DNA from: Halodesulfovibrio sp.
GTDB lineage: Bacteria > Desulfobacterota > Desulfovibrionia > Desulfovibrionales > Desulfovibrionaceae
Length of the DNA: 33,552 nucleotides
Direction of reading: 5' to 3'
Assembly: GCA_003252375.1 (NCBI GenBank)
Contig: QKEJ01000142.1
Location: 1 to 33,552, forward strand
The notes below the pieces were generated by a model. It was given only the letters and a program-made list of their open reading frames with translations, was not told the origin of the DNA and did not search any database. A program made the position numbers and the translations under genes. Positions 2,957-28,765 of this stretch are shown piece by piece. Positions within the stretch are counted from its first letter, which is position 1, and each line of letters opens with the position of its first letter.

Positions 2957-2968
2957 GAGGAGTACCCC

Positions 2969-4870: not shown

Positions 4871-4882
4871 GGGGAGGATAGT

Positions 4883-6494: not shown

Positions 6495-7039
6495 TGGCTA
6501 CGTACACTCTGACCACCCCGCTGCGCGACGAGGATCTGCTGAAGCTCAAGGTGGGTGATGTGGTGAAGCTGAACGGCACCATCTACACCGCCCGTGACGC
6601 CGCCCACAAGCGGCTGTGCGACCAGCTGGACAACAACGAGAAACTTCCCTTCGAGCTGCAGGGCGCCGTGATCTACTACGTCGGTCCGAGCCCCGCACCG
6701 GAAGGCAGACCCATCGGTGCCGCCGGTCCCACGACCAGCTACCGCATGGATTCCTACGCACCCCGGCTGCACAGCCTGGGCGTGAAGGCAAGTATCGGCA
6801 AAGGAAAGCGTAGCGCTGCGGTTCGCGAAGCCCTGCAGAAGCATGTGGGGGTCTACTTCGGCGCAACCGGCGGCGCGGGCGCGCTGCTTTCGCAATGCAT
6901 CACGGCTGCGGAGGTCATCGCCTTTGACGACCTCGGGCCCGAGGCCGTGCGCAAGCTGACAGTGAAAGATTTCCCGTTGCTCGTGGTCAATGACGCCCAC
7001 GGCAACGAGCAATATGCCAAACCCAACTACGATCTGTAG
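6494..7039 (+). CDS. fumB: Class I fumarate hydratase, beta subunit
   Basis: C-terminal (TtdB-like) half of the split fumarase, 181 residues from ATG 6494. The start is chosen because AAGGAGG lies at 6477-6483 and the product then begins MATYTLTTPLRDEDLLKLKVGD, the usual beta-subunit N-terminus. An upstream in-frame ATG at 6458 lies inside the alpha gene and lacks such a site. Typical motifs are GPTTSYRMDSY and ATGGAGALLSQCI. It overlaps fumA by one base (TAATG). Confidence 0.92.
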   Translation: MATYTLTTPLRDEDLLKLKVGDVVKLNGTIYTARDAAHKRLCDQLDNNEKLPFELQGAVIYYVGPSPAPEGRPIGAAGPTTSYRMDSYAPRLHSLGVKASIGKGKRSAAVREALQKHVGVYFGATGGAGALLSQCITAAEVIAFDDLGPEAVRKLTVKDFPLLVVNDAHGNEQYAKPNYDL

Positions 7040-7069: not shown

Positions 7070-8392
7070 ATGGCCCTGTACACCAAGCAAGAAGCACTTG
7101 ATTACCACGAGCTTCCCCGCCGCGGGAAGGTTGAAGTCGTTCCGGTCAAGCCCTGCAATACGCAGAAGGACCTTTCTCTCGCCTATTCTCCGGGCGTTGC
7201 GGAAGCCTGCATGGCTATTCACAAGGACCCCGCGCTGGTCGATGTGTACACCGGTCGTGCCAACCTCGTCGGTGTCGTGTCCGACGGCACCGCCGTGCTC
7301 GGTCTGGGCAACATCGGCCCCAAGGCCGGCAAGCCCGTCATGGAAGGCAAGGGCGTCCTGTTCAAGACCTTCTGCGACATCGACGTCTTCGACATCAACC
7401 TTGATGTGAAGAGCGCTGATCAGCTCATCGACATCGTCAAGGCCATGGAACCCACCTTCGGGGGCATCAACCTCGAAGACATCAAGGCTCCCGAGTGCTT
7501 CTACATTGAAGAGACGCTCAAGCGTGAAATGAACATTCCCGTGTTCCACGATGACCAGCATGGTACGGCGGTCATCTCCGGTGCGGGTATCATCAACGCC
7601 TGCGAGATCACCAACCGCAAGATGGAAGACATGAAGGTCGTCGTCGTGGGTGCCGGTGCCGCCGGCATTGCCTGCGCCACCTTCTACGTGCAGCTTGGCG
7701 TGGATCCCAAGAACATCTTCATGTTCGACTCCCGCGGGCTCATCCACAAGGGCCGCGAAGGCATGAACAAGTACAAGGCGGCATTCGCACAGGACAAGGA
7801 CTACGGCTCGCTGGCCGAGTGCCTGAAGGGTGCGGACTGCTTCCTCGGCCTGTCCGTGCAGGATCTGCTGAACAAGGAAATGGTCCAGTCCATGGCCAAG
7901 GATCCCATCATCTACGCCATGGCCAACCCCAACCCGGAAATTCCGTATCCCCTCGCCAAGGAAGCCAGCCCCAACTGCATCATGGGTACCGGGCGCTCCG
8001 ACTTCCCCAACCAGGTGAACAACGTTTCCGGCTTCCCGTACATCTTCCGCGGCGCGCTGGATGTACAGGCCACCGAGATCAACGAGGAAATGAAAGTTGC
8101 CGCTGCCAAGTCCCTCGCTGCTCTGGCCAAGGAACCCGTACCGAGCGAAATCTGCGATGCCTACGGCGTCAAGGAACTGAAGTTCGGTGTGGACTACGTC
8201 ATTCCCAAGCCCCTGGATGCACGCATCCTGGAATGGGAAGTACCCGCCGTAGCCAAGGCGGCCATGGAAACGGGCGTTGCCCGCGCCCCCATCGCCGACC
8301 TGAAGGCGTACACCGCAACGCTTAAGGAACGAGTTGCCGCGTCCCGCAAGCGTATCAATACGTACGTCAAGAGCTACGGATTCGAGTTCTAA
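7070..8392 (+). CDS. mae: Malic enzyme, NAD(P)-dependent, short bacterial type
   Basis: Oxidatively decarboxylates malate to pyruvate and CO2, 440 residues. Key features are the catalytic Tyr in [11 protein letters not shown] (Y39), the metal/Lys region [12 protein letters not shown], the HDDQHGTA motif and a Rossmann site [13 protein letters not shown]. The size fits the short form without the phosphotransacetylase domain. Cofactor choice cannot be settled by eye; NADP is favoured because nfnAB lies in the same cluster. An AGAGGAGAA ribosome site precedes ATG 7070, 30 bases after fumB. Confidence 0.93.
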
Positions 8393-8515: not shown

Positions 8516-9853
8516 ATGAAAAAGTTGCTGAAGATTCTCGGTCTGGCGTTCATCCTGGTCCTTGCCGTTGCCGGCGTGTGCTTTGCTGCCGATGCACCGC
8601 CAGATCCCACCAAGGCGTATATTACCCTTGGCATTCTTGGCGTTGCCGCCATCCTGTTCTTTACTGAAATTGTTCCGCTGCCCGTTACCGCCATGCTGGT
8701 TCCCGTTGCCCTCAGCATATTCAAGATCGTGGACGCCAAGGCGGCATTCTCGAACTTCGGTAACGTCTGGGTGGTCATCTTCATGGCCATGTTCATCGTG
8801 GGTGAAGCCACGTTCGTGACCGGCTTTGCCGACAAGGTGGGCAAGGCGACCGTCAAGCTTGCCGGCGGCAGCGAAACCAGACTGCTGGTGCTGTCCGTTG
8901 CCGTTATCGGCATCCTTTCCGCCTTCCTGTCCAACACCGGTACCACGGTTGTGGCCATTCCGATGATCATCGGCATGTGCACCACCGCAGGCATCCGACC
9001 CAGCAAGATCCTGATGCCCGTGGCGTTTGCCTCGTCCCTGGGCGGCACCATCACGCTGGTCGGCACCCCGCCCAACGGCATCATTAACTCCATGCTGCAG
9101 AAGATGGGCCCCGCCGGCATCGAACCCTTCGCGTTCTTTGAATTCGCCAAGTTCGGTGTGCCGCTGCTGGCCATGGGCGTGCTCTTCTACGCCACCATCG
9201 GCCGGAAGCTGCTGCCCGACACCATGGCCGAGTGCACCATCGAGGAGCAGGCCGAAAAGCCCAAGCGCCCCGAAAAGATGTGGTGGGCCCTCGGCATCTT
9301 CATCTTCGTTGTGGCAGCCATGGCCACCAAGTTCCTGCCCCTGGTCACCGCAGCCATGCTCGGCGCCTGTCTTATCGTCATGACCGGCTGCATGACCATG
9401 AAGGAAGCCTTCAAGGCCATTGACTGGACCACCATCTTCCTGTTTGCGGGCATGCTTTCCATGAGCACGGCCATGTCCAAGTCCGGTGCGGCCTCCATGA
9501 TCGCCACGAGCGTGGTGAGCCATGTGTCCGACCCGTACATGCTGCTGGCCGTGTGCTGCGGTCTTACCGCCATCATCACCAACTTCATGTCCAACACCGC
9601 CACGGCGGCCCTGATGGCTCCCCTGGCCATTCCGATCGCCGTGCAGGGCGGCATCAGCCCGCTGCCGCTGGCCATGGGCATTGCCATGTCCGCTTCGGCC
9701 TGCTTCCTGACGCCTGTTGCCACGCCCCCCAATACCATCGTATTGGGACCCGGTAACTACAACTTCATGCACTATGTGAAGGCCGGCTGGCCTTTGCAGA
9801 TCATAACCTTTATCATGTGTGTCACGATCATCCCCATGATCTGGCCCTTCTAG
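8516..9853 (+). CDS. DASS/SLC13-family sodium:dicarboxylate symporter
   Basis: Integral membrane transporter, 445 residues, with many hydrophobic helices. The two inverted-repeat halves each carry the DASS signature Ser-Asn-Thr: SNTGTTVV in the first and SNTATAAL in the second. Each is paired with a hairpin-loop motif (GTPPNGI and ATPPNTIVLGPG). The family imports succinate, fumarate, malate or sulfate with sodium. The neighbours (fumarate reductase, fumarase, malic enzyme) make C4-dicarboxylates the likely cargo. An odd feature is the N-terminus, which looks like a cleavable signal peptide (MKKLLK, hydrophobic core, VCFAADAPP) ahead of the first family helix. A GAGGAT ribosome site precedes the ATG. 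Confidence 0.85.
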   Translation: MKKLLKILGLAFILVLAVAGVCFAADAPPDPTKAYITLGILGVAAILFFTEIVPLPVTAMLVPVALSIFKIVDAKAAFSNFGNVWVVIFMAMFIVGEATFVTGFADKVGKATVKLAGGSETRLLVLSVAVIGILSAFLSNTGTTVVAIPMIIGMCTTAGIRPSKILMPVAFASSLGGTITLVGTPPNGIINSMLQKMGPAGIEPFAFFEFAKFGVPLLAMGVLFYATIGRKLLPDTMAECTIEEQAEKPKRPEKMWWALGIFIFVVAAMATKFLPLVTAAMLGACLIVMTGCMTMKEAFKAIDWTTIFLFAGMLSMSTAMSKSGAASMIATSVVSHVSDPYMLLAVCCGLTAIITNFMSNTATAALMAPLAIPIAVQGGISPLPLAMGIAMSASACFLTPVATPPNTIVLGPGNYNFMHYVKAGWPLQIITFIMCVTIIPMIWPF

Positions 9854-9901: not shown

Positions 9902-10750
9902 ATGGCGAACACAATTCTGAAGAAAGAGCAGCTCATTCCCGGACAGACCAGCAAGCTGGTCATCGATGCTCCGCACATTGCTGCCAAGGCCCAGCCTGGG
10001 AACTTCATCATTCTGCGTGTGAACGAGAAGGGTGAACGCATCCCGCTGACCATTGCGGACACCGACCGTGAAAACGGCACCATCACCATCGTGTATCTGG
10101 TTCTCGGCAAGAGCACGGCTCTGCTGGAGGAACTGAACGAGGGCGATGACATCCTTGATTTGTGCGGCCCTCTGGGCAAGGCGACTCATATCCAGAAGGG
10201 CGGCACGGTCATCTGCGTGGGCGGGGGCACCGGCATCGCTGCCATGCACCACATCGCCAAGGGACATCACATGGCCGGAAACCACGTGGTGGCCGTCATT
10301 GGCGCACGCAACAAGGATCTGCTGCTCTTTGAAAAGGAATTGAAGAGCTTCTGTCCCGAAGTGCTGATTTCCACCGACGACGGCAGCTATGGCCACAAGG
10401 GCCTTGTGACGGAGCTGCTGAAGGACCGTCTGGAAAAGGACAAGAGCGTTGTCGAGGTCGTGGCCGTTGGCCCCGTGCCGATGATGGCTGCCGTGTCCAA
10501 AACCACGGAACCGTTTGGCGTGCCCACCACCGTCAGCCTGAACTCGATCATGGTTGACGGGGTGGGCATGTGCGGCGCCTGCCGCGTGACCGTGGGCGGA
10601 CAGACCAAGTTCGCCTGCGTGGACGGACCCGAATTCGACGGCCACAAGGTGGACTTCCAGGAACTGCGGCAGAGGTTGGCGGCGTTTTCGCCCATGGAGA
10701 AGGAATCCTACGACCATCACTGCAGGTGTAAGTGCAATGACAGCAAGTAA
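9902..10750 (+). CDS. nfnA: NADH-dependent ferredoxin:NADP oxidoreductase, small (FNR-like) subunit
   Basis: Small subunit of the flavin-based bifurcating Nfn complex, 282 residues. An FNR-type FAD barrel (RIPLTIAD) is followed by a nucleotide-binding domain (VGGGTGIAAMHHIAKG). A C-terminal [2Fe-2S] motif follows, with the cysteines of GMCGACRVTVGG and FACVDGPEF. The complex couples NADPH to NADH and reduced ferredoxin and works in both directions. It ends CRCKCNDSK and overlaps nfnB by 14 bases. Related proteins are called sulfide dehydrogenase or glutamate-synthase-associated; the pairing with nfnB favours Nfn. Confidence 0.9.
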   Translation: MANTILKKEQLIPGQTSKLVIDAPHIAAKAQPGNFIILRVNEKGERIPLTIADTDRENGTITIVYLVLGKSTALLEELNEGDDILDLCGPLGKATHIQKGGTVICVGGGTGIAAMHHIAKGHHMAGNHVVAVIGARNKDLLLFEKELKSFCPEVLISTDDGSYGHKGLVTELLKDRLEKDKSVVEVVAVGPVPMMAAVSKTTEPFGVPTTVSLNSIMVDGVGMCGACRVTVGGQTKFACVDGPEFDGHKVDFQELRQRLAAFSPMEKESYDHHCRCKCNDSK

Positions 10751-12161
10751 GAAGACCATCGCCAAGCGGGTTCCCATGCCCAACCAGCCGCCGGACGTGC
10801 GTCGGAACAACTTCGATGAGGTTGCACTCGGATACACCAAGGAAATGGCTATGGAAGAGGCCAAGCGCTGTCTGCAGTGCAAGAAGCCCAAATGCGTGAA
10901 GGGATGCCCCGTTGAGGTGCCGATTCCCGATTTCATCGCACATCTCGCCAAGGGTGACGTGGAAAAGGCCTACGCGGTCATCAAGTCCACCAACAGCCTG
11001 CCGGCGGTCTGCGGACGCGTGTGTCCGCAGGAGATTCAGTGCGAGGGAGCCTGCATTCTCAACGCCAAGGAGCAGCCCGTCGCCATTGGGCGTCTCGAAC
11101 GCTTCACGGCGGACGAGTACATGCACATGGATGCGTGCGACCTCATCACGGCCAAGCCGGAATGTCCGTACATTGATCAGGACAGGAAGGTTGCCTGTAT
11201 CGGTTCCGGTCCCTCCAGCCTTACGGTGGCAGGCTATCTGGCCGCCCGCGGCTGCAAGGTGACCGTGTTTGAAGCACTGCATGAGGTGGGGGGCGTTCTG
11301 GTATACGGCATACCGGAATTCCGCCTGCCCAAGGAAAAGATCGTGGCCAAGGAAGTCGGCGCCCTCAAGGAGCTCGAGGTGGAGTTTGTCACCAACTATG
11401 TTGGCGGCAAGACCTTCAACATCGAGGATCTGTTCGAACAGGGCTACAAGGCCGTGTTTGTAGGGGTGGGCGCAGGCCTGCCGAAGTTCCTGAGAATTCC
11501 GGGCGAGAACTTCAACGGCGTGTTTTCCGCCAACGAGTATCTCACCCGCGTGAATCTGGGACGTGCCTATGAGTTCCCGAACTACGATACCCCGATTATA
11601 AAAGGTCGGAAGGTTACGGTCTACGGTGGCGGCAACGTTGCCATGGACGCGGCCAGAACGGCGCAGCGTCTTGGTGCGGAATCCGTCCACATCGTCTACC
11701 GTCGTACCGCGGACGCCATGCCCGCGCGCCATGAAGAGATCGAGCATGCCGTGGAAGAGGGTATCCATCTCGAAGTCCTGTCCAACCCCATCGAGTTCCG
11801 GGGAGACGAGAGAGGCAATCTGACCTCCGTGCTCCTGCAACGTATGGAACTCGGGGAGCCGGACGCCTCCGGACGCCGCTCGCCAAAGCCCGTGGAGGGC
11901 GACGTCTACGAGCTGGAAACCGATCTCGCCGTCATAGCCGTGGGTACCAACCCCAACCCGGTACTGCTGGAAAATGAGCCCGGCTTGAAACTCAACAAGT
12001 GGGGCTACATTGAAGTGGATGAGGCGACCGGAGAAACCTCTATTCCCAATGTCTACGCCGGCGGTGACATCGTCACCGGTGCGGCAACGGTCATCTTGGC
12101 CATGGGCGCAGGGCGCCGCGCGGCCAAGGAGATAGCCCACCGTTTCGGCATTGAGGATTAG
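10737..12161 (+). CDS. nfnB: NADH-dependent ferredoxin:NADP oxidoreductase, large subunit
   Basis: Large, bifurcating-flavin subunit, 474 residues, of the glutamate synthase beta-subunit family. The N-terminal region carries cysteines for two [4Fe-4S] clusters (CLQCKKPKCVKGCPVEVPIP and VCGRVCPQEIQCEGAC). The first Rossmann site (GSGPSSLTVAGYLAARG) binds FAD, and the second (GGGNVAMDAARTAQRLG) binds NADP(H). A third motif, NVYAGGDIVTGAATV, is typical of the family. No glutamine amidotransferase partner is nearby, which argues against true glutamate synthase. NADPH from malic enzyme would be its natural donor. Confidence 0.92.
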   Translation: MTASKKTIAKRVPMPNQPPDVRRNNFDEVALGYTKEMAMEEAKRCLQCKKPKCVKGCPVEVPIPDFIAHLAKGDVEKAYAVIKSTNSLPAVCGRVCPQEIQCEGACILNAKEQPVAIGRLERFTADEYMHMDACDLITAKPECPYIDQDRKVACIGSGPSSLTVAGYLAARGCKVTVFEALHEVGGVLVYGIPEFRLPKEKIVAKEVGALKELEVEFVTNYVGGKTFNIEDLFEQGYKAVFVGVGAGLPKFLRIPGENFNGVFSANEYLTRVNLGRAYEFPNYDTPIIKGRKVTVYGGGNVAMDAARTAQRLGAESVHIVYRRTADAMPARHEEIEHAVEEGIHLEVLSNPIEFRGDERGNLTSVLLQRMELGEPDASGRRSPKPVEGDVYELETDLAVIAVGTNPNPVLLENEPGLKLNKWGYIEVDEATGETSIPNVYAGGDIVTGAATVILAMGAGRRAAKEIAHRFGIED

Positions 12162-12176
12162 TCCGACCTGTTCGTA

Positions 12177-12237
12177 AGGCCTTTCGGCCTGTATCCTACC
12201 GCCCACCCGCTGTTCGCCCAAAATGGCGGGCGGGCGG
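12177..12237 (+). terminator. Possible 3' hairpins after nfnB
   Basis: A small hairpin (AGGCC-TTTC-GGCCT, 12177-12190) is followed by a 12-bp GC-rich stem with one mismatch (12199-12210 with 12226-12237, 15-nt loop). No T-tract follows, so factor-independent termination is uncertain. Their position at the end of the nfn unit suggests a transcript end or a stabilising structure. Confidence 0.4.
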
Positions 12238-12414: not shown

Positions 12415-13740
12415 ATGTCGGATACAAAGGCGAATCACCCCACGAAGCTGGCCCGTCCGTCCGGCTTGTCCTTCAAGGACAAGGTGGCCGAACTGCTGCC
12501 CGAGGGCGGCAACCTCAACCTGTGCCTTACCTGCGGTGCCTGCTCTGCAGGATGCCCGGCTACCGGGCTGGAGGGCATGGACCCGCGCAAGTTCCTGCGC
12601 ATGGCCGCGCTCGGCATGGATGAGGAGCTTACCACCACCCCCTGGGTGTGGATGTGCAGCATGTGCACCCGGTGCGTGCATGTGTGCCCCATGCGCATCA
12701 ATATTCCCCAGCTTGTGTACCACGCCCGCAAGAGTTGGCCCGAGGACAAGAAGCCCCGGGGCATTGTCAATTCCTGCAACGCGGCCATGAAGACCGAGGG
12801 GTTCAGCGCCATGGGCGCCAGTTCCGAGGACTTCAAGTTCGTGGTTGAGGACATGGTGGAAGAGGTGCGTGAATCCCAGCCCGGGCAGGAAAACCTTGAA
12901 GCGCCCATGGACAAGCACGGGGCGACCTATTTTCTGAACCAGAACTCGCGCGAGCCCGTGACCGAGCCGGACGAAATGGTTCCGCTGTGGAAGATCCTGA
13001 ACATGGCCGGTTGCGACTGGACCTACGGCTCCGTGGGCTGGGCGGCGGAGAACTACTGCATGTTCGAGGCGGATGACGAGAAGTGGGAGCAGATTGTCCG
13101 CACCAAGATCAAGGCGGTGGAGGACCTCGGCTGCAAGTATTGGCTGAACACGGAGTGAGGCCACGAACTGTACGCAGTCCGGTTCGGACTGCAAAAATTC
13201 AATATCAAGACCGACGTTCAGATCGAATCCATCATCCGCCTGTATGCGCAGTGGATTCGGGAGGGCAAGCTTCCCGTCAATGCTGACTGGAACAAGGATA
13301 ACGTGAAGTTCACCGTGCAGGACCCCTGCCAGCTGGTGCGCAAGACCTTCGGCGATCCGGTGGCGGATGATCTGCGCTACGTGGTCAAGGCCGTGGTGGG
13401 TGAGGAGAACTTCATCGACATGTGGCCCAACAAGTCGAACAACTACTGCTGCGGCGGTGGCGGCGGCTACCTGCAGTCCGGGTACACCGAGGCGCGCCGC
13501 TACTACGGCAAGCGCAAGGACGAGCAGATCAAGGACACGGGGGCAACGTATGTCATTGCCCCCTGCCATAACTGCCATGCGCAGATACATGACCTTTCCG
13601 AGCACTATGGCGGCGGGTACCACGTGGTGCATTTGTGGACTCTGATTGCCCTGTCGCTGGGCATGCTCGGGGAGAATGAACGGGAGTATCTCGGTGAGGA
13701 CCTGTGCGATTGCGGTCTGTGCACCGTGGATGATGAATAA
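12415..13740 (+). CDS. Selenocysteine-containing DsrK/TmcB/HdrD-family iron-sulfur protein
   Basis: Read as one 441-residue gene with TGA at 13156-13158 decoded as selenocysteine (U248). ATG 12415 follows GGAGAG. An HdrC-like part holds two [4Fe-4S] motifs: C37/C40/C43/C47 and C81/C84/C87/C91. Then come two CCG-type (HdrB/D) domains. The first is degenerate and ends NTEUGHE, where DsrK-like proteins have a Cys (GECGHA). The second is canonical: DPCQLVR, NYCCGGGGG and PCHNCH. The frame continues across the TGA without another stop, and the downstream segment completes the domain. There is no membrane helix. In this family the CCG domain holds a noncubane cluster that reduces disulfides such as that of DsrC. 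U248 may tune a cluster or thiol site. It probably partners the HdrA encoded next. Confidence 0.88.
13156..13192 (+). promoter_or_regulatory. SECIS-like element after TGA codon 248
   Basis: The in-frame TGA (13156-13158) is followed 15 nt later by a perfect 7-bp stem, GCAGTCC (13174-13180) with GGACTGC (13186-13192), closing the loop GGTTC. Bacterial SECIS hairpins bind SelB through an apical GGU at about this distance; here GGU begins 22 nt after the TGA. The element lies inside the coding sequence, as in bacterial selenoprotein genes generally. Confidence 0.75.
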
Positions 13741-13785
13741 GTCTCCGTTGCCAGGGTGACGGGGAGACAGCCCAGAGAGGAAGCT

Positions 13786-16700
13786 ATGAACGCAGCTACG
13801 AAGGCAACCCGGCCCGATGCCCCTCCTGCGGACGCCAGCGGCGCCGTCATGGTGGTGGGTGGCGGGATAGCGGGCATGCAGTCTGCCATCGACCTCGCGA
13901 ATTCTGGATTCAAGGTCTATCTGGTGGAGCACAAGTCCGGCATCGGCGGGGTCATGGCCCAGCTGGCCAAGACGTACCCCACCAACGACTGCGCGCTCTG
14001 AATACTCTCACCCAAGTTGGTCGAGTGCGGTCGGCACTTGAACATCGAGCTTCTGCCCCTTACCGGGGTGCGGAGCGTGGAAGGTGAGGCGGGCGACTTT
14101 ACGGTGCATCTTACCCAGGCGCCCCGGTATATTGATCCGGAAAAATGCATTGCCTGCGGTGAGTGTTCCCGGAAATGCCCCAGCAAGGTTTCCAACGACT
14201 TCAATGCCGGTCTGGACAAGCGCAAGGCCGTGCACATCCTGTATGACCAGACCGTCCCCCTGAAGTACGCCATAGATGCGGAGCACTGCATCTATCTGCA
14301 GAAGGGCAAGTGCGGCAACTGCGCCAAGGTCTGTCCTGCGGATGCGGTGAACTTTGCGGACACGCCGCGCGAATTTTCGGTGCGCGTGGGCTCGGTGGTG
14401 CTTGCGCCCGGCATCCGGACCTTCGATCCTTCCGCCTTTGACAGCTACGCCTACTCCCGCATCCCGGATGTCATCACCAGTCTGGAATACGAACGTCTTC
14501 TCTCCGCCTCCGGCCCTTGTCAGGGGCACGTGTTGCGTCCTTCCGACGGGACGGAGCCCAAGCGCATCGCCTGGCTGCAGTGCGTGGGGTCGCGCGGCAA
14601 CAACAAGTGCGACAACGACTACTGCTCCAACGTCTGCTGCATGTACGCGCTGAAGCAGTCGCTGGTGACGGCGGACCACGCCCATGGCGAGGGGCACGAT
14701 CAGGCCATCTTCTTCATGGATGTGCGCGCCCACAACAAGAGCTTCGAGCAATATTACAACCAGGCCATGGACAAGGGGGTACGCATCCTGCGGGCGCGGC
14801 CCCATTCCTTCCTGCCCGGCGAGGAAAACCGCGGGGTCAGGGTGGGGTATGTGAACGAGGCGGGCGAGCCGCTGTCGGAAGATTTCGACATGGTCGTGCT
14901 CTCCGTGGGGCTGGAAGCCCCGGCCGAGGCGAAGCAGCTTGCCGAAACCTTCGACATCAAGCTGGACCACTGGAACTTCGCCCTCACCGATCCCTTTGAC
15001 CCCGTGGCCACCTCCCGCAAGGGCGTGTATGTCTGCGGCGGGTTCCAGGAGCCCAAGGACATCCCCCGTTCGGTCATGGAGGCCAGCGCAGCAGCCAGTG
15101 CCGCCACGGCAGGCCTGACCAAGGGGCGCGGCACGCGCACCGCAGAACGCGAGGTGCCCGCAGCGGTGGACGTGCTGGGCGAACCGCCGCGCATCGGAGT
15201 GTTCGTCTGTTCCTGCGGCATCAACATTTCCAGTGTCATCGACGTGCAGGATGTGGCGGACTACGCCCGGACTCTGCCTGGGGTCGTGCACGTGGAAAAC
15301 AACATGTTCTCCTGTTCGCAGGACACCCAGGTCGCCATTGCCGAGGTCATCCGCAAGCACAGGCTCAACCGCGTGGTGGTCGCCGCCTGTACGCCCCGGA
15401 CTCATGAGCCGCTGTTCCGCGAAACGCTGGAGGCGGCCGGACTGAACAAGTATCTCTTCGCCATGGCGAACATCCGCAACCACGGTTCGTGGGTACATGC
15501 CACCGATCCCAAGGGCGCTACCCGCAAGGCCCGGGATCAGGTACGCATGGCGGTGGCCAGCGCCCGGCATCTGGCGCCGCTCAAGGAAGTGACGCTGGGC
15601 GTCACCCCCTCGGCCCTCGTGGTCGGCGGCGGCGTGGCCGGCATGACCGCTGCGCTGGGCATCGCCGAGCAGGGGTTTGCCGTGCATCTGGTGGAGCGGG
15701 AGACCGAACTCGGCGGCAACGCCCGGATGCTGCGCGTGACGCAGGGGCGGTTTGAAACGGCCCCCTACCTTGCCTCGCTGGAAAAAGCGGTGCGCGGGCA
15801 CGCCGGCATCACCCTGCATGCCGGTACCACGGTTGCCGATGTGGAGGGCTTTGTGGGCAACTTCGTCACCCGCCTCGACAGCGGCACCGAGCTTCGCCAC
15901 GGTGCCATCGTGCTGGCCACGGGGGGCGTGGGCCTGAAACCGGAAGGGATGTACCGCTATGGCGAGCATCCGCGCATCATGACGCACCAGCAGATAGACG
16001 CCGGGTTCATGGACGGTTCCGTGGATCCCAAGGCGCTGCAGAGCGTAGTGTTCATCCAGTGCGTGGGCTCCCGCGAACCGGGCCGCCCCTACTGCTCGCG
16101 CGTCTGCTGCACCCACACGGTGGAGAGCGCCCTGCATATCAAGCGCACCAATCCGGACGCCCGGGTGGTGGTGCTCTACCGTGACATGCGCACCTACGGG
16201 CAGCGCGAACTGCTCTACAAGGAGGCCCGCGAGGCCGGGGTCATCTTCTCCCGGTTCAGTCTGGACCACCGGCCCGTGGTGGACGTGGTGAACGGGACCA
16301 TCACCGTGACCTTCCGAGACCACGTGCTGCAGCAGGACCTGACCGTGGAGGCGGACCTGCTTGGTCTTGCCTCGGCCATCGTGGCCCCGGACGTGAACGG
16401 TCTGGCCCAGATGGTCAAGGCCACGCTCAGCGACGAGGGCTGGTATGTGGAGGCCCACTCCAAGCTGCGGCCCGTGGACTTCGTGACGGACGGCATGTTC
16501 ATGGCCGGGCTCGGGCACTATCCCAAGCCGCTGGAGGAATCCGTCACCCAGGCGCGCGCGGCGGTTTCCCGCGTTACCACCGTGCTCAGCCGGACCGAGA
16601 TGACCCTTGCCGGGACCGTGGCCACGATCAACAAGGCCAAGTGCGTGGGCTGCGCCGTGTGCTGGAACGTGTGTCCCTACAATGCCATCAGCCCCGACGA

Positions 16701-16839
16701 AAAGGGCTTTGCCGAGGTGAACGAGGCCCTGTGCAAGGGCTGCGGCCTGTGCGCCGCTGCCTGCCGTTCGGGTGCCCCCGATCTGCGCGGGTTTACCACC
16801 AGTGACATCATGGCGCAGGTTTCCGCCATGCTCGGCTGA
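13786..16839 (+). CDS. hdrA: Tandem HdrA-type bifurcating flavoprotein with selenocysteine
   Basis: One 1017-residue gene with TGA at 13999-14001 read as U72. ATG 13786 is chosen over an upstream in-frame GTG (13756) because GAGAGGA lies just before it. Half 1 has an FAD site ([12 protein letters not shown]), then [14 protein letters not shown], where HdrA proteins have DCAMCIL or DCALCIL. It also has a ferredoxin domain (C121/C124/C127/C131 and C168/C176/C179/C183) and the HdrA signature [20 protein letters not shown] from C266. Half 2 repeats a VCSCG element, a Rossmann site at 614-619, [17 protein letters not shown] from C759, and C-terminal clusters C953/956/959/963 and C983/986/989/993. 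HdrA carries the FAD that bifurcates electrons between ferredoxin and the disulfide-reducing subunit. Two flavin sites in one chain suggest an internal HdrA dimer. Confidence 0.9.
13999..14040 (+). promoter_or_regulatory. SECIS-like element after TGA codon 72 of hdrA
   Basis: After the TGA (13999-14001) a 7-bp stem with one G-U pair forms between CGAGTGC (14022-14028) and GCACTTG (14034-14040). The loop is GGTCG, so GGU again opens a five-base apical loop, 27 nt after the TGA. The layout matches that of the element in the preceding gene. Confidence 0.75.
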
Positions 16840-16871
16840 TCCTTCAGGACCGGCCCGCAAGGAGAAGTTGC

Positions 16872-17420
16872 ATGAAAGAGATAGAGCTGTACGAACCGCG
16901 TATCGTGGCATTCTTCTGCCACTGGTGCTCCTACGGTGCCGCCGACCTCGCCGGTGTGAGCCGCATGGAGTATCCGGCCAGTTTCCGCGCGGTGCGCATT
17001 CCCTGCACGGGGCGCATGAGCCCCAAGTTCATCCTGCACGCCCTGCGCCAGGGGGCTGACGGCATCTGGGTCTCCGGCTGCCACCCCGGTGACTGCCATT
17101 ACGGCACGGGCAATTACCATTCCCGGCGTCGGCTCGAGCTGCTCAAGAACATGCTCGACTACATCGGCATCGAGGAAGGACGTATCCACTTTTCGTGGAT
17201 ATCCTCGGCCGAGGCCGAGAAATTCCAGCAGATGGCCATCCGTGTGGTGGAGGCCGTGCGCGGTCTCGGTCCGAACACCCGGCTGGTGAAGAGCGTGTGC
17301 AGCAACTGCATCCCGCCTGTGCCCACCTGCGACACCATGCATGAGTGCTATGAGCCGCTGGAGGAGATTCCCGGCGCGCCCAGACCCAACGGCTCCTGCT
17401 GCGGAGGGAACGGATTATGA
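16872..17420 (+). CDS. flxD: FlxD/MvhD-family [2Fe-2S] electron-transfer subunit
   Basis: Small protein, 182 residues, of the MvhD/FlpD family that docks on HdrA and delivers electrons to its flavin. The four conserved cysteines are in FFCHWCSYG (C16, C19), IPCTGRMS and SGCHPGDCHYGTGN. Family proteins bind a [2Fe-2S] cluster there. The C-terminus continues about 45 residues past the usual core, with further cysteines (SVCSNCIPPVPTC and a final SCCGGNGL), which may hold another cluster. AAGGAGAAG precedes the ATG, 32 bases after hdrA. It overlaps the next gene by ATGA. Confidence 0.88.
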   Translation: MKEIELYEPRIVAFFCHWCSYGAADLAGVSRMEYPASFRAVRIPCTGRMSPKFILHALRQGADGIWVSGCHPGDCHYGTGNYHSRRRLELLKNMLDYIGIEEGRIHFSWISSAEAEKFQQMAIRVVEAVRGLGPNTRLVKSVCSNCIPPVPTCDTMHECYEPLEEIPGAPRPNGSCCGGNGL

Positions 17421-18397
17421 TGAAGACGCGCACAGAGGCCATCCGCGCCGCCGCCCGCACCTTGCTTGAAGAGGGCAGGGTGGATGCGGTCATCGGGTAT
17501 GTTCAGGGCACCATCCCCCTGCGGGCTCAGCCCTTTGTCGCCTATACGCCGGAAGAATGCGACCGGTTCATCTGGAGCAGCTTCTGCGGCGGCAACCTCG
17601 CGTCCATTGCCTCCGGACGTACGGACCGGGTGGCCGTGGTGGCCCAGGGATGCGTGTCGCGCAACCTGAACGGACTGGTGCACGAGAACCGTATCCAGCG
17701 GGAGAACCTGTATATCATCGGGGTGCCGTGCATCGGCATGCTGGACCAGCGCAAGGTGGAGGCCAAGCTCTTCGGGCGCAACATCGAGTTCCTGAAACGC
17801 GATCCCGAAGAGGATCTCGGCGAGATCGTGGTGGGCGGCTGCAACGCCATGGGCGAATGCTATGAAGAGGTGATCAAGCGTCGCGACGTGAAGCGGGACA
17901 ACTGCTACACCTGCATGCATCGCAATCCTGTCGGAGCGGATACCGTGGTTGTGGAGCCGGTTTCCGAAACCGCGGGGGGCGACATCAACGCCGTGGCCAC
18001 GCCGTGGATGCGGTTTGATGCCGACCGCCGATGGGAGGAGTTTGCAAAGAATTTCGAGGACTGCATCCGCTGCTACGCCTGCCGCGATGTCTGTCCGCTC
18101 TGCTACTGCACCACCTGCTTCGTGGACGAGTCCAATCCCCAATGGTGCGGCAAGACGCAGGATTCTGCGGATGTACAGACCTTCCATATCCTGCGCGCCT
18201 TTCATTGTGCGGGGCGCTGCACCGACTGCGGCGCCTGCGAGAGTGCCTGCCCGCAGGGCATCAAGATGCGCCGCCTGACCAGCATGCTGGAGAAGGACGT
18301 GCGCACCCTCTGGGGGCATGAGCCGGGCATGGACAGCACGACCAAACCGCCCCTTTCCACCTACAGGCCGGACGATCCGGAAGACCACTTCAAGTAG
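17417..18397 (+). CDS. flxC: FlxC-like iron-sulfur protein of the Hdr-Flx complex
   Basis: Soluble iron-sulfur protein, 326 residues. The N-terminal 200 residues resemble the F420-hydrogenase beta/FdhB type fold, with scattered conserved cysteines (QGCVSRN, GVPCIG, GGCNAMGEC, NCYTC). The C-terminal part carries two ferredoxin motifs, C216/C219/C222/C226 followed by C229/C231/C234, and C268/C271/C274/C278. It is expected to wire FlxA and FlxB electrons toward FlxD-HdrA. The start codon overlaps the flxD stop by four bases. The B versus C name is from position and domain type, so the letter is less certain than membership of the complex. Confidence 0.68.
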   Translation: MMKTRTEAIRAAARTLLEEGRVDAVIGYVQGTIPLRAQPFVAYTPEECDRFIWSSFCGGNLASIASGRTDRVAVVAQGCVSRNLNGLVHENRIQRENLYIIGVPCIGMLDQRKVEAKLFGRNIEFLKRDPEEDLGEIVVGGCNAMGECYEEVIKRRDVKRDNCYTCMHRNPVGADTVVVEPVSETAGGDINAVATPWMRFDADRRWEEFAKNFEDCIRCYACRDVCPLCYCTTCFVDESNPQWCGKTQDSADVQTFHILRAFHCAGRCTDCGACESACPQGIKMRRLTSMLEKDVRTLWGHEPGMDSTTKPPLSTYRPDDPEDHFK

Positions 18398-18406
18398 GAG
18401 GCCGCC

Positions 18407-19477
18407 GTGCAACACAGGATACTCAGCAAGGATAGCCTCGCGGCCTTCCTGGAGGGACTGCGCAAGGAGCATGTTGTCTATGCGCCCAAGCGTGACAAGA
18501 AGGTCCCCAACAAGATGGTCTGGAAGATACTGGAGCCGGGCGAGAGCCCGCTGTTCGAGTTCGCCAATACGGACATGTCCCCCAAGGATTTCGTGTTTCC
18601 GCAGAGCGAATGCCTGATGCGATTCCGGACCGGGGAAGACGGAACATCGGTGCTCAAGCCCATAGAGCCCGAGCCAAGGAAGACGCTGCTTTTCAATGTG
18701 CGTCCGTGCGACGGCAAGGGACTTTCCTTCATGGACATGATCTTCTGTCAGGACGAGCAGACCAACGACGTGTACTGGCGTGACAAGCGCGAGCGGACCC
18801 TCATGGTGGGCCTTGCCTGCAACAATCCGTGTCCCTCCTGCTTCTGTCATGAGGCCAACTGCGGCCCGCACAGCGAGACAGGGCTGGATGTCCTGATGAC
18901 CGACCTTGGCACCCGGCTGCTGCTCAAGCCGCTTACCGACCGGGGAGCGACCCTTGTGGACGGGCTGCCCGAAGCGGCCCCCGGCGACGTGGATCGTGCC
19001 GAGGAGTTGAAGGGCACGGTGGAAGCCTCCATGAAGCCGGTCATCCGGACCGAGCACCTGGAGGCGCGCAGTCTCATGGACGCGTACAACCTGCCGTACT
19101 GGGACAGGGTGTGCGAGGCCTGCATCAACTGCGGTACCTGCACCTTCGTGTGTCCCACCTGCCACTGCTTCGACATTCAGGACGAGACCACGCCGGATGG
19201 CGAGGAGGGACGCCGGGTGCGCAACTGGGATTTCTGCATGTCGCCGCTCTTTACCCTGCATACTTCCGGCCACAACCCGCGGGGGAAGAAGATGGCCCGC
19301 GTGCGGCAGCGGTTCATGCACAAGTACAAGTATATCCCCATGAAGCGGAACGGCGAGGTGGGCTGCGTGGGCTGTGGACGATGCGTGCGTCTGTGCCCCG
19401 TGAACATTGATATCCGCGACGTGATCAACGCCATGAATGCCCCTGCCGAGGCCAAACCCGAAGGGCAGGAGGTGTAG
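18407..19477 (+). CDS. flxB: FlxB-like (AsrA/HydB-type) dicluster iron-sulfur protein
   Basis: Dicluster ferredoxin-like subunit, 356 residues, of the family that includes anaerobic sulfite reductase subunit A. The central region has a CNNPCPSCFC cysteine patch. The C-terminal half has two [4Fe-4S] motifs (CEACINCGTCTFVCP and CVGCGRCVRLCP). It starts with GTG 18407, selected because TAGGAGG lies at 18396-18402 and no nearby ATG is in frame. In Flx complexes such subunits carry electrons from the FAD/NAD subunit encoded next. The gap to flxA is two bases. Confidence 0.75.
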   Translation: MQHRILSKDSLAAFLEGLRKEHVVYAPKRDKKVPNKMVWKILEPGESPLFEFANTDMSPKDFVFPQSECLMRFRTGEDGTSVLKPIEPEPRKTLLFNVRPCDGKGLSFMDMIFCQDEQTNDVYWRDKRERTLMVGLACNNPCPSCFCHEANCGPHSETGLDVLMTDLGTRLLLKPLTDRGATLVDGLPEAAPGDVDRAEELKGTVEASMKPVIRTEHLEARSLMDAYNLPYWDRVCEACINCGTCTFVCPTCHCFDIQDETTPDGEEGRRVRNWDFCMSPLFTLHTSGHNPRGKKMARVRQRFMHKYKYIPMKRNGEVGCVGCGRCVRLCPVNIDIRDVINAMNAPAEAKPEGQEV

Positions 19478-19479
19478 CC

Positions 19480-20319
19480 ATGCTGAATCCCTATCTGCCG
19501 TACCCCGTACGCATCACCGACGTGCGGGTGGAGACCGAGGACAAGACCCTGCGCACCTTCGAGTTCGAGTTTCTGAATCCCAAGGATGCCAAGGCATTTG
19601 ATTACCATCCCGGCCAGTTTGCCGAGCTCTCCATCCCCGGCGTGGGCGAGAGCCCCATCGGCATAGCCTCCAGCCCAACGGAAGGGGACAGGCTCCTGTT
19701 TACCGTGTTCCGGGCCGGCAGCGTGACGGGCCGCCTGCATGGAATGCAGGTGGGCGACGTGATGGGCGTGCGCGGCCCCATGGGCAACTGGTACCCGCTG
19801 GACGCGCACGAGGGAAAGAACATTACCATTATCGCCGGCGGCTATGCGGTGACCACCCTGCGCGCCACCATGGTCTGGCTGCAGGACCCGAAGAATCGTG
19901 ACCGGTTCGGCAGCATCGACTTCATCTACGGCGCGCGGACGCCCGGCATGCTGCTGTACCGGGACGAGATGGCCGCCTGGCAGAAGACGGGCGGCGTAAA
20001 CTGCCATATTACCGTGGACCGGGAGTTCCCCGGCTGGACCGGGCTGACCGGGTTCGTGCCCACCGTCACCGAGCAGGTGGCCCCCAACCCGAACAACGCC
20101 ATTGCCCTGGTGTGCGGTCCGCCCATCATGATCAAGTTCACCCAGCCCGTGCTGGACAAGTGCGGCTGGAAGGCCGACCAGATCTATCTGTCGCTGGAAA
20201 ACCGCATGAAGTGCGGCATAGGCATCTGCGGCCGCTGCAACGTGGGGCATCAGTACGTCTGCAAGGATGGTCCCGTGTTCAGCAAGGCGGAACTGGACCA
20301 GCTGCCGGTGGAGTACTAG
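19480..20319 (+). CDS. flxA: FlxA-like FAD/NAD(P)-binding oxidoreductase subunit
   Basis: NADH-oxidising entry subunit, 279 residues, of the ferredoxin-NADP reductase superfamily, close to AsrB and HydG types. YHPGQFAELSI and SPIGIASSP form the FAD barrel; CGPPIMIKF is the nucleotide-domain end motif. The C-terminal cluster motif is CGIGICGRCNVG followed by YVCKDGP, a [2Fe-2S] site. The nucleotide loop reads AGGYAVTTLRAT, where relatives often have GG-x-G-x-x-x-LR; the Ala in place of Gly is unusual and may alter cofactor preference. AGGAGGT at the end of flxB is its ribosome site. It is the last gene of the operon. Confidence 0.82.
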   Translation: MLNPYLPYPVRITDVRVETEDKTLRTFEFEFLNPKDAKAFDYHPGQFAELSIPGVGESPIGIASSPTEGDRLLFTVFRAGSVTGRLHGMQVGDVMGVRGPMGNWYPLDAHEGKNITIIAGGYAVTTLRATMVWLQDPKNRDRFGSIDFIYGARTPGMLLYRDEMAAWQKTGGVNCHITVDREFPGWTGLTGFVPTVTEQVAPNPNNAIALVCGPPIMIKFTQPVLDKCGWKADQIYLSLENRMKCGIGICGRCNVGHQYVCKDGPVFSKAELDQLPVEY

Positions 20320-23099: not shown

Positions 23100-23124
23100 C
23101 GGGCCCCCTCCTGTTCCGAAAGCA

Positions 23125-23159
23125 TGAAAAAACGCCGGGCAGCCATGCTGCCCGGCGTT
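23125..23159 (-). terminator. Bidirectional terminator between usp and mtnA
   Basis: A perfect 13-bp stem (23131-23143 with 23147-23159) with a 3-nt loop. On the minus strand it is followed by six T (AAAAAA on the plus strand), so it is a strong mtnA terminator. On the plus strand the T-tract is weak. Confidence 0.85.
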
Positions 23160-23183
23160 GTCGCGTGTACGGTAGGAATGCTG

Positions 23184-24236
23184 CTACTTGATTCCCGCGT
23201 CCTTGAAGGCCTTGGCAATGGATTCCTTGTAGGGCGGGCGCAGAACGCCCATCTCGGTCACGATGCCGGCGATGAGTTCGTTGGGCGTGGCGTCGAAGGC
23301 GAAGTTGTACACCGGCACGCCGTCGGGCGTGATCTGGGTTTCCCCCACATGGGTCACTTCGCGCGGGGTGCGGTCCTCGATGGGGGTGTCGTCGCCGGTG
23401 GGCATGTTGCGGTCTATGGTGGAAAGCGGGGCGGCCACGTAGAAGGGAACGCCGTGTTCACGGGCCAGCAGGGCAACGGAATAGGTGCCGATCTTGTTTA
23501 CCGCGTCGCCGTTGGCGGCAATGCGATCCGCTCCCACTACTACCTTCTGCACCATGCCGCGCCGCATCAGCAGGCCGCAGGCGTTGTCGCAGGCCACGGT
23601 CACGGGGATGTTGTCCTCTTTCAGCTCATAGGCCGTGAGACGCGCCCCCTGCAGGAAGGGACGGGTTTCGTTGGCAATGACCGTGATGCCTTTCTTGCCT
23701 GCGTCGATGGCGCCGCGGATCACGCCGAGGGCCGTGCCGTAGCCGGCCGTGGCCAGTGCGCCCGCGTTGCAGTGGGTCATCACGGTGTCGCCGTCATCGA
23801 TGACGGTTGCGCCGTGCGCGCCCATGCGGGTGTTGATCTCTATGTCCTCGCGGTGGACGAGGGTGGCCTCCATGAGCCACATGTTCGTCAGCCCCTCGCG
23901 GGTGACGTCCGGACGTTCGGCCCACAGGGCCTTCATGCGCTCCACGCCCCAGCGCAGGTTGACGGCGGTGGGACGTGCCTCGGCAATGGCTTCCAGCTTG
24001 TCGCGCAGCGCGCTCTGCCAGTCGGCTTCGCCGGCCACTTCTATGGCGGCCAGCAGGCAGCCGTAGGCGGCGGTCACGCCGATGGCCGGTGCGCCGCGCA
24101 CCACCATGGTCTGCAGGGCGTAGATGATATCCTCGGTGTTCCGGCAGTAGAAGTCATCCTCGCGGGAGGGCAGGTAGCGCTGGTCCAGAAGAATGAGCGC
24201 CCTGTCATCGGCGGAATAGCGTATGTGGCGTTCCAT
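23184..24236 (-). CDS. mtnA: S-methyl-5-thioribose-1-phosphate isomerase
   Basis: Converts 5-methylthioribose-1-phosphate to 5-methylthioribulose-1-phosphate in methionine salvage or related shunts, 350 residues. The active-site Cys is in [11 protein letters not shown] and the Asp in [13 protein letters not shown]-terminal [13 protein letters not shown] is typical. The start is placed at 24236 (MERHIRYS) because AAGGA precedes it. The frame is open to an upstream ATG (24407), but that extension is Arg/Pro-rich and lacks family similarity. No other methionine-salvage gene is adjacent. eIF2B-alpha-like paralogues are possible, but the Cys/Asp pair favours MtnA. Confidence 0.92.
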
Positions 24237-24429
24237 TGTGCGTCCTTGACGGCTTGATGGGTTGCAGGGATCGCGGCACTGTTTTCGGCCGCGTGGTGTG
24301 GCCGGGCATGCATTCGTCACACGGGGCGGGTAGGCATGGTGCCGGTATGCGCCGGTGCGTGCTTCCGCACGGCCCTTTTGGATAGCCTCAATCCGCGTGG
24401 CGGGCAAGGGGCAGGGTGAACGGCTGACA

Positions 24430-25798: not shown

Positions 25799-25846
25799 CA
25801 CACGAACAGGCGGCGGGAGAGCATTCTCCCGCCGCCTGTTCGTGTG
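25799..25846. terminator. 22-bp perfect hairpin between convergent genes
   Basis: The arms at 25799-25820 and 25825-25846 are perfectly complementary over 22 bp and close a GCAT loop. It sits between the diguanylate cyclase (+) and the Crp/Fnr gene (-) and could stop transcription from both sides. No T-tract flanks it on either strand. Confidence 0.6.
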
Positions 25847-25864
25847 TGGTGGGCACGGGACGGG

Positions 25865-26557
25865 CTACGCCACCATCTCGCGCAGGCGCGCTTCATCAAG
25901 AATATGGTATACGCCGCGCTTCTCGCGGTGGAGGATGCCGGACCGGGTCAGATCGTTCAGCAGGGTGGAAATGGTCTGGCGGGTGGCGCCAAGGTGCTGG
26001 GCCAGCAGTTCCCCTGTCATGTTCAGGTGCACCACGCGGCGTCCTTCCTCGCTCTGGGCGGTATCAAGCAGGAAGACCGCAAGCCGGGCCGTGGAATCGC
26101 GGAACACCAGCCCGTCGATGATGCCGAAGGCGTTCTTCAGGATGCCGCCGAGCACGCGGACCATGGTCTGGGTGAACTGGGGTACGTCCATCATGCGCGT
26201 GTGGAAGGTGGCAATGTCCGTCAGCAGGAGGGTGCAGTCGCTCATGGCCTGTACATAGGCCCCCGTGTGGCTTGTGTAGATGTCGCCGGGTTCGAGGATG
26301 GCGATGGTGAACTCCTTGTCTCCGTAGGCAAGGTAGACACGTACGCGGCCGGTCTGCACGATGAAGACGAAGTTGCTGTGCGACGGTGCGGAGGGCACCG
26401 GTACATGCAGGGCTTCCGGCGTGTCGGAATCCTCCGTCAGGTCGGGCTGGAACAGCAGGGCGTTGCGGGGAAAGGTCCGGTACCGGAAGGCGCTGCGCAG
26501 TTCGGCAAATTCCGGCTTGGCCATTTCCTCCAGCAGGTTCATGGAGGTGAATTTCAT
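25865..26557 (-). CDS. Crp/Fnr-family transcriptional regulator
   Basis: One-component regulator, 230 residues. A cyclic-nucleotide-type sensor barrel (about 25-130, with VFIVQTGRVRVYLAYGDKEF) is followed by a long dimer helix and a winged helix (GELLAQHLGATRQTISTLLNDL). The start is set at 26557 (MKFTSMNLLEEM) because AGGAG lies eight bases upstream; two further upstream in-frame ATGs lack a site. It has only one Cys, so it is not an iron-sulfur Fnr, and it lacks a recognisable CooA haem signature. The effector is unknown. It stands alone between two terminator-like hairpins. Confidence 0.88.
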   Translation of the reverse strand: MKFTSMNLLEEMAKPEFAELRSAFRYRTFPRNALLFQPDLTEDSDTPEALHVPVPSAPSHSNFVFIVQTGRVRVYLAYGDKEFTIAILEPGDIYTSHTGAYVQAMSDCTLLLTDIATFHTRMMDVPQFTQTMVRVLGGILKNAFGIIDGLVFRDSTARLAVFLLDTAQSEEGRRVVHLNMTGELLAQHLGATRQTISTLLNDLTRSGILHREKRGVYHILDEARLREMVA

Positions 26558-26633
26558 GGGATTGCTCCTGATTCCCCGCATCATACAGAAGCCGCCATGG
26601 AGAGCAACCGCTCACCCGCAGGAGAAGGGGCGG

Positions 26634-26671
26634 AAAAACAGCCGCCCGGCCGTGGGATATCGGCCGGGCGG
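26634..26671 (-). terminator. Terminator of the OlsF-like gene (minus strand)
   Basis: A perfect 11-bp stem (26642-26652 with 26661-26671) closes an 8-nt loop. On the minus strand it is followed by CTGTTTTT. It separates the acyltransferase gene from the Crp/Fnr gene downstream. Confidence 0.8.
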
Positions 26672-26716
26672 GGGCATACCGGAGGGGGTTGTCTCCGGCA
26701 CGGCAGAGGAGGAGGC

Positions 26717-28522: not shown

Positions 28523-28765
28523 ACGGTGTACCTCGTAACGACAGGGTTGAGTTGGCGGGCCCGGCGGCCCCGTTACGAGTTGTGTAGGGTGTCAATGTGG
28601 TTGTTCCGTGAAGGGGGCGTTACAGTTTCAAGGCACCGGGACCTCGGGGGCAAACGTCACGCAACCGAGCGTGATGCGTAACGGTGTCGCCATGTTCGGG
28701 TGCGGGTTCCGTGGCATAGGCATGGACCATCGGAATCACCTTACCATCCCAGCGAGGAGAAGCTC
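28523..28765. promoter_or_regulatory. Divergent intergenic region with CGTAACG repeats
   Basis: Between the divergent acyltransferase (-) and dksA-like (+) genes. CTCGTAACG (28532-28540) and CGTTACGAG (28571-28579) are 9-base inverted arms. A further CGTAACG lies at 28677-28683 and a near copy CGTTACA at 28618-28624. A hairpin TCACGC/GCGTGA (28657-28674) abuts the last copy. They could be sites of a shared regulator; none is known to me. Confidence 0.4.

Follow-up and report, generated by a model that had tools for sequence, protein, structure and literature searches.

We analyzed a 33,552-nucleotide (nt) contig of Halodesulfovibrio sp. (hereafter the window; GCA_003252375.1, QKEJ01000142.1, our contig C85 of a 3.44-Mb assembly of 203 contigs that is 86.5% complete), which carries at 12415-20319 on its + strand six consecutive genes for a DsrK/GlpC-type iron-sulfur (Fe-S) protein, a tandem HdrA, and FlxD-, FlxC-, FlxB- and FlxA-like proteins. 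The gene order given in a preliminary description of the window was borne out by domains and coordinates, and the first two genes each contain an in-frame TGA that, as far as sequence can show, codes for selenocysteine (Sec). The locus is real and well conserved and is not a new class of system; its selenocysteine part is solid, and its reaction is one that we infer. We consider the chances somewhat better than even that the six gene products form one soluble flavin-based electron-bifurcating complex that, with the neighboring NfnAB, would constitute a two-step relay during malate/fumarate oxidation. The operon comprises the following features, in which SECIS stands for selenocysteine insertion sequence and FAD for flavin adenine dinucleotide:

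12415-13740, + strand: DsrK/GlpC-type Fe-S selenoprotein (labelled HdrD; gene hdrD), with an HdrC-like 4Fe-4S domain, one CCG motif and Sec248
13156-13158, + strand: TGA of Sec248, motif TE-U-GHE
13174-13192, + strand: SECIS-like hairpin of the bacterial type, found by folding; 8 bp, loop GTT, loop start 23 nt past the TGA
13786-16839, + strand: tandem HdrA selenoprotein, 1017 residues, with an FAD domain carrying an Fe-S insert, an HdrA N-domain, a second FAD domain and a C-terminal ferredoxin part
13999-14001, + strand: TGA of Sec72, motif DCAL-U (CxxU)
14022-14040, + strand: SECIS-like hairpin of the bacterial type, found by folding; loop GGTCG, loop start 27 nt past the TGA
16872-17420, + strand: FlxD/MvhD-like protein, Cys form, with FlpD domain PF02662 (172.6 bits)
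17417-18397, + strand: FlxC-like Fe-S protein with an FrhB/FdhB-like start (Pfam FrhB_FdhB_N)
18407-19477, + strand: FlxB-like Fe-S protein, AsrA/HydB-like by Pfam/NCBIfam
19480-20319, + strand: FlxA-like FAD/NAD(P)H-binding subunit, AsrB/HydG-like by Pfam/NCBIfam

Homologs have only TGA or a Cys codon at the two positions. Among 61 hits to the first protein (E ≤ 1e-20), residue 248 is encoded by TGA in 40, TGC in 18 and TGT in 3; residue 72 of HdrA is encoded by TGA in 11 and TGC in 15 of 26 hits. Both counts take in hits covering the residue, de-duplicated by the same 90 bases from the codon on. A wider sample came from scanning public-genome contigs with an alignment of the FlxC-like protein, which yielded 296 confirmed loci, of which the best 80 were used (more exist). 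HdrA residue 72 was readable in 50 of these 80 loci and unreadable in 30, and the readable codons were 46 TGA, 2 TGC and 2 TGT. Six odd residues at HdrA 72 (A, D, L, N, Y, Y) stemmed from weak alignments (24-36% identity, 49-57 bits) and were dropped.

Because a scan of the window against Rfam at gathering scores gave no match, SECIS elements were sought by folding. In every one of the 40 TGA copies of the first gene, a hairpin follows with its loop beginning 22-23 nt past the TGA, and across 38 distinct TGA sequences standard pairs occupy 297 of the 304 stem cells, compared with at most 126 in controls with a slid partner. In 11 Cys copies of this gene the corresponding figures are 57 of 88 cells and at most 44, and loop-G hairpins occur in 8 of the 11 at scattered distances. 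For HdrA, 10 of 11 TGA copies share a best hairpin with the loop GGTCG, placed 27 nt past the TGA, the exception being L110, for which a different fold scored higher; the stem pairs in 67 of 70 cells over 10 distinct sequences, compared with at most 33 in slid controls. The number of loop Gs is biased, since the search rewarded them; the weight rests on the constant distance and on the pairing relative to slid controls.

The reading frames point the same way. Past both TGAs, codon changes relative to three genus members are mostly synonymous, which indicates that the downstream frames are constrained: compared with the relative G132, the window has 62 synonymous and 18 non-synonymous changes in the 193 codons past U248, and 265 and 112, respectively, in the 945 codons past U72. 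Ahead of U72 (70-71 codons), the synonymous/non-synonymous counts for the three genus members are 22/10, 26/9 and 18/18. The tandem hdrA ends at a genuine TGA stop (16837-16839), and the four flx-like frames are open, with no internal TGA. The genome encodes the full Sec machinery, comprising tRNA-Sec (80.2 bits, cut-off 47), selA (618 bits), selB (363) and selD (334), all above their cut-offs; selD itself has one in-frame TGA. The marks of a bacterial selenoprotein, namely an in-frame TGA at a Cys position, a hairpin behind it and selA, selB, selC and selD, were thus found together, in agreement with the two selenoproteins that the preliminary description had claimed while naming the absence of these genes as refuting. 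Three features of the hairpins count against this interpretation: their energies in the window are unremarkable (z -1.42 for the first gene, -0.38 for HdrA), 103 of 1000 column shuffles of the HdrA stem reach the observed value and so fail to separate this nearly invariant stem from chance, and changes on both sides of the stem occur in only 4 cells (first gene) and 1 cell (HdrA). The unexceptional single-sequence energies are what would be expected if the TGAs were true stops, sequencing errors or pseudogene scars; given the codon counts, which hold with G132 (listed as one contig) included, together with the constrained frames and the machinery, we regard that explanation as extremely improbable.

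None of the six proteins reached an NCBIfam cut-off among the matches listed, and the names used here therefore rest on domains, gene order and similarity. Residues ~29-106 of the first protein match HdrC from solved complexes. Its remaining part carries a single motif, C305-C345C346-C384xxC387, whereas the HdrB proteins of two canonical loci in the same genome have two such motifs each. The preliminary description had proposed that HdrB and HdrC functions are fused here; the HdrC-like domain and one CCG motif were found, but the second HdrB cluster motif is missing. HdrD proper combines HdrC with a two-CCG HdrB, and with its one CCG motif the first protein is accordingly a DsrK/GlpC-type protein and not a complete HdrB+HdrC fusion. 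It scored below the NCBIfam cut-offs for DsrK (110.7 bits, cut-off 400), HmcF (158.2, cut-off 750) and TmcB (159.5, cut-off 735). Between Cys91, the last Cys of the ferredoxin part, and Cys305, the 22 family members that were aligned share a single invariant Cys/Sec, residue 248. The fold predicted from 22 sequences (mean predicted local distance difference test score 82.9, predicted template modelling score 0.84) best matched EtfD of Mycobacterium smegmatis (9ojn, TMq 0.65), followed by HdrB of several methanogens, and, judged from these fold matches, Sec248 would face the one non-cubane cluster.

In some relatives (L140 in G051, L141 in G013, and G054, G122 and G027), a Sec Fe-S protein of this kind lies in tandem with a Cys paralog (TEUGHE beside IECGHS), and in L140 and L141 the tandem comes after a cluster of HdrA-type, FlxD-type and two-CCG HdrB-like genes. 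The two proteins may form a selenium-dependent/independent pair. Relatives also provide Sec/Cys pairs with which to ask what selenium does at an Hdr-type disulfide site.

The tandem HdrA claimed earlier was also found, with HdrA domains occurring twice in one 1017-residue protein. Alignment to solved HdrA matched residues 20-391 to the FAD domain including its Fe-S insert, 466-624 to the N-domain and 874-1016 to the C-terminal ferredoxin part, and Sec72 falls on the second Cys of the DCSMC motif of HdrA 8rvu_a. Scores against three HdrA models were 649-912 bits, each under its curated cut-off. The chain looks like two HdrA units joined together and would act as an intramolecular HdrA dimer. 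The expected Flx-type NAD(P)H module is present as well, with an FlpD domain in FlxD and NAD/FAD domains in FlxA. FlpD and FrhB_FdhB_N are hydrogenase-derived names that here denote the FlxD and FlxC-like parts, and no hydrogenase large- or small-subunit domain was listed among the 26 window proteins scanned. At the position of FlxD Cys70, 69 of the 80 FlxC-type loci have TGA and 11 have no stop; with TGA at HdrA 72 in 46 of 50 loci, the usual form has Sec in both HdrA and FlxD, while the window FlxD has Cys. A stop in the FlxD of L131 and L137 was rejected as Sec, since it lies at residue 149 and not at Cys70. Upstream of FlxD in ten loci (L150, L152, L184, L192, L193, L197, L217, L221, L226 and L227), two HdrA parts flank an NfnB-like stretch, an arrangement similar to HdrL, the type in which HdrA is fused to glutamate synthase, known from Desulfobacterium autotrophicum.

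The same genome has two further sets, on contigs C132 and C187 (L144, L145), whose FlxA-D proteins share 28-51% identity with those of the window and which have a single HdrA each, an HdrB with two CCG motifs and a separate HdrC-like frame, read by eye. Taking these, from their gene content, as canonical Flx-HdrABC loci, the window operon is a third, diverged set. Beside the set in L144, a - strand frame (10454-11635) reads by eye like an iron-type alcohol dehydrogenase.

A search of 149 genomes of the family found the first protein at E ≤ 1e-30 in 109, with 58 matches of at least 630 bits in 42 genomes (counted from the listing) and then a gap down to 201 bits. The FlxC type gave 10 copies in 9 genomes above 380 bits, followed by a gap down to 189 bits, and this gap sets it apart from the FlxC of canonical loci. 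Full-length tandem HdrA numbered 13 copies in 11 genomes, 11 of them with one TGA and 2 without (up to 5 candidates were scored per genome). The complete six-gene set in the same order, suggested as a check in the preliminary description, occurs in the window genome, G132, G096 and G021, that is, in four of nine genus members. The other five (G057, G079, G108, G120 and G142) have FlxC and HdrA matches of the distant kind only. Around their first gene, no HdrA or Flx genes were found in the stretches of G057, G079, G108 and G120 (~2 kb upstream and 8-10 kb downstream; both sides for G108), and the G142 contig stops just past it; G120 has TGT in place of the TGA at residue 248. In G088, outside the genus, the genes run HdrAA-FlxDCBA-HdrD and each of the three Sec positions is a Cys codon, and in G088 and G041 FlxDCBA is also present without an adjoining tandem HdrA (L131, L137).

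Most of the 80 best FlxC-type loci are titled Desulfo- or Deltaproteobacteria; 66 have HdrA upstream within the stretch, and HdrAA(Sec)-FlxDCBA recurs across many Desulfobacterota records. A homolog of the first protein lies nearby on the same strand in 10 of the 80, with 69-74% identity and TGA in L149, L155 and L197, 35-39% and TGA in L154, L160, L161 and L203, and 31-34% and Cys in L153, L164 and L179 (L164 and the contig of G023 are probably one and the same). Opposite-strand homologs in L169 and L209 were left out of this count. In L155, from Desulfocarbo indianensis, each of the three genes has a TGA.

Upstream of the operon, the window carries the following genes:

2303-5671, + strand: fumarate reductase subunits
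5658-7039, + strand: two-part fumarase
7070-8392, + strand: malic enzyme
8516-9853, + strand: citrate/dicarboxylate-type transporter (CitMHS)
9902-10750, + strand: NfnA-like subunit, in the same place in G132, G096 and G021
10737-12161, + strand: NfnB-like subunit, the next gene upstream of the operon

Fumarate reductase, fumarase and NfnAB occur together in all nine genus members, beside malic enzyme in five and the transporter in three, and the hdr-flx set follows this cluster in only four. Eight family genomes have this FlxC type beside a tandem HdrA; fumarate reductase and fumarase lie close by in six of them (the window, G132, G096, G021, G005 and G023), and NfnAB adjoins in five. Two of the six belong to other genera, with the orders Frd-Fum-HdrAA-FlxDCBA-NfnAB-HdrD' (G005) and Frd-Fum-HdrAA-FlxDCBA-HdrD'-malic enzyme (G023), where HdrD' is a Cys homolog of 32-33% identity. 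The link was not seen in the stretches fetched from G069 and G088. This association of the Hdr-Flx set with the fumarate reductase-fumarase-malic enzyme-NfnAB cluster is apparently a new point, at least to us. The genome has dsrA (640 bits, cut-off 393) and dsrC (117 bits, cut-off 53.5), so the organism is likely to be a sulfate reducer.

From this arrangement, we infer complex formation, its direction, bifurcation, DsrC as the acceptor, and the position and role of Sec248. FlxA would take up hydride from NADH, and electrons would pass from FlxB through FlxC and the MvhD-like FlxD to the tandem HdrA. At an HdrA flavin, one electron would go uphill to ferredoxin and one downhill to the first protein, where the latter would travel via the HdrC-like clusters and reach the only non-cubane (CCG) cluster. 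At this cluster, the disulfide or trisulfide of a protein (DsrC being the most likely one) would be reduced, with Sec248 opposite the cluster attacking or holding the substrate sulfur. This NADH/ferredoxin/disulfide role is plausible. NfnAB next door would convert malic-enzyme NADPH to NADH and reduced ferredoxin, so that electrons could run from NADPH through Nfn to NADH and through Flx-Hdr to the disulfide, with ferredoxin reduced at each step. The two-step relay is proposed because of the gene linkage and of genetics in another species: in passages of a study of Desulfovibrio alaskensis G20, a mild defect on malate and fumarate is reported for mutants in NfnAB-2 (Dde_1250:1251) and a stronger one, on formate, for Hdr/flox-1 mutants; malate oxidation should yield NADPH (PMC4215793). 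A bolder version, in which a selenium-dependent double bifurcation relay is encoded in one locus and Sec248 with the single non-cubane cluster makes a new kind of disulfide-reducing site, one cluster and one selenol taking the role of HdrB's two clusters, seems to us unlikely. The passages of the same study call the entry of NADH and NADPH electrons into sulfate reduction in Desulfovibrio a long-standing mystery (PMC4215793). The locus places a transhydrogenase next to both an NADPH source and a proposed NADH/disulfide bifurcator, which makes the route of NAD(P)H into sulfate reduction testable and gives a useful handle on it.

Several observations weigh against the proposed complex and relay. 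EtfD and other proteins that resemble the first protein in fold are not known to act on disulfides. The relay may be split over more than one transcript, because hdrD starts 253 bp past nfnB and a short inverted repeat, AGGCCTTTCGGCCT (12177-12190), lies between the two genes; this repeat is shared by the window, G132 and G096 and is missing in G021, and the aligned regions of the four genomes showed nothing convincing as a shared operator upstream of hdrD. The best rnfC match (207 bits) lies below the cut-off of 246, which leaves Rnf, the usual user of ferredoxin, uncertain. According to the G20 passages, Hdr/flox-1 is important on formate, hydrogen and ethanol rather than on malate (PMC4215793). 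The first protein may also not be an obligate subunit, given that five of the nine genus members have it without this HdrA/Flx set. HdrAA-FlxDCBA might then be the complex and the adjoining Sec protein an independent disulfide or Fe-S oxidoreductase that shares only its regulation. Consistent with this, 70 of the 80 FlxC-type loci lack a same-strand homolog of the Sec protein (71 within 9.5 kb, L149 having it slightly farther away), many of the contigs being short. A quick tree of the first protein, with duplicates and hits spanning fewer than about 340 residues excluded, served solely to gauge the frequency with which the Sec protein joins HdrA-Flx operons. For 45 of its 64 rows, the stretch available shows no close HdrA or FlxC on the gene's own strand within 9 kb, many stretches being short or one-sided. 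The copies located in operons are divided between two distant clades, and the starred branches force at least five changes. Yet the Sec protein adjoins HdrAA in distant lineages (L149, L155 and L197, and in the second clade L154, L160, L161 and L203), either before or after the Flx genes, and the passages on published glpC-hdrA-frhD operons show the same pairing (PMC1794560); we hold an independent role to be rather unlikely.

The complex might alternatively run as a confurcator, with ferredoxin and a dithiol (DsrC) reducing NAD+ to NADH. Such complexes are reversible in principle, and Nfn running in either direction is discussed in the G20 passages (PMC4215793); however, malate oxidation nearby should make NADPH, which would favor the oxidative direction, and we find a confurcator quite unlikely. 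In place of a disulfide, the electrons could finally reach a partner linked to quinones or flavins, such as the fumarate reductase encoded next door. The top fold match to EtfD and the fumarate reductase genes nearby in six of eight family genomes speak for such a partner, but none of the six proteins has a membrane or cytochrome part according to Pfam, HdrB comes next among the fold matches, and Sec is suited to thiol/disulfide chemistry; this acceptor appears improbable. Reduction of a disulfide by a bifurcating complex remains the reading that we prefer.

The preliminary description took the operon to be an apparently distinct form; novelty of its selenoprotein pair found no support, both families having been published in 2006. 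In passages of Zhang et al., Sec-GlpC and Sec-HdrA, with hdrA doubled, stand in one operon with frhD-frhG-frhA, and the order glpC-hdrA-hdrA-frhD-frhG-frhA is given for Syntrophobacter fumaroxidans and Desulfotalea psychrophila (PMC1794560). The window shares with these operons the Sec GlpC (UGH), the doubled Sec HdrA (CxxU), FrhD/MvhD and the same order; their input is the hydrogenase FrhG/FrhA, whereas that of the window is FlxC-B-A (NADH), and their FrhD is a selenoprotein, whereas the window FlxD has Cys (PMC1794560). A 2026 review, in the passages available, catalogues the UGH Fe-S oxidoreductase-like and CxxU HdrA families (PMC13188914). In view of these operons and families, the window operon can be described as that Sec core, with Flx (NADH) as its input where the published operons have a hydrogenase. 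Passages on Desulfobacterium autotrophicum HRM2 report Sec in HdrA, HdrL, HdrD4 and MvhD, with hdrA or hdrL beside mvhD; the gene combinations differ from ours, and those passages do not mention Sec HdrD, Sec HdrA and Flx genes together in one operon (PMC2702500). Our literature search, by listings and passages, met no description of this Sec core with an Flx input, and we claim no priority.

Two other systems combine related parts. The FlxABCD-HdrABC of Desulfovibrio vulgaris was reportedly described by Ramos in 2015 with a proposed NADH/ferredoxin/disulfide bifurcation, and DsrC is said to have been identified as its partner by Ferreira in 2023. An FlxA-D module feeding HdrA is common to that system and the window, where the FlxA-D genes stand together; the separate two-CCG HdrB, separate HdrC and single HdrA of that system are absent from the window operon. 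HdrD-like, HdrA-like and MvhD-like parts also occur together in BamDEF of class II benzoyl-CoA reductase. Sec is reported in BamE of Desulfococcus multivorans in the passages of PMC5109826. Nothing among the 26 scanned window proteins was named as a ring-reducing Bam subunit (BamB/BamC), no Bam-directed search having been made.

Elsewhere in the window, three long frames (23124-24257, 25844-26968 and 27056-28681) had no Pfam match at E ≤ 0.001. At the contig start, 20-1879 encodes a pyruvate formate lyase-like glycyl radical enzyme, whose match starts at profile position 173, so that the contig end may have truncated the gene.

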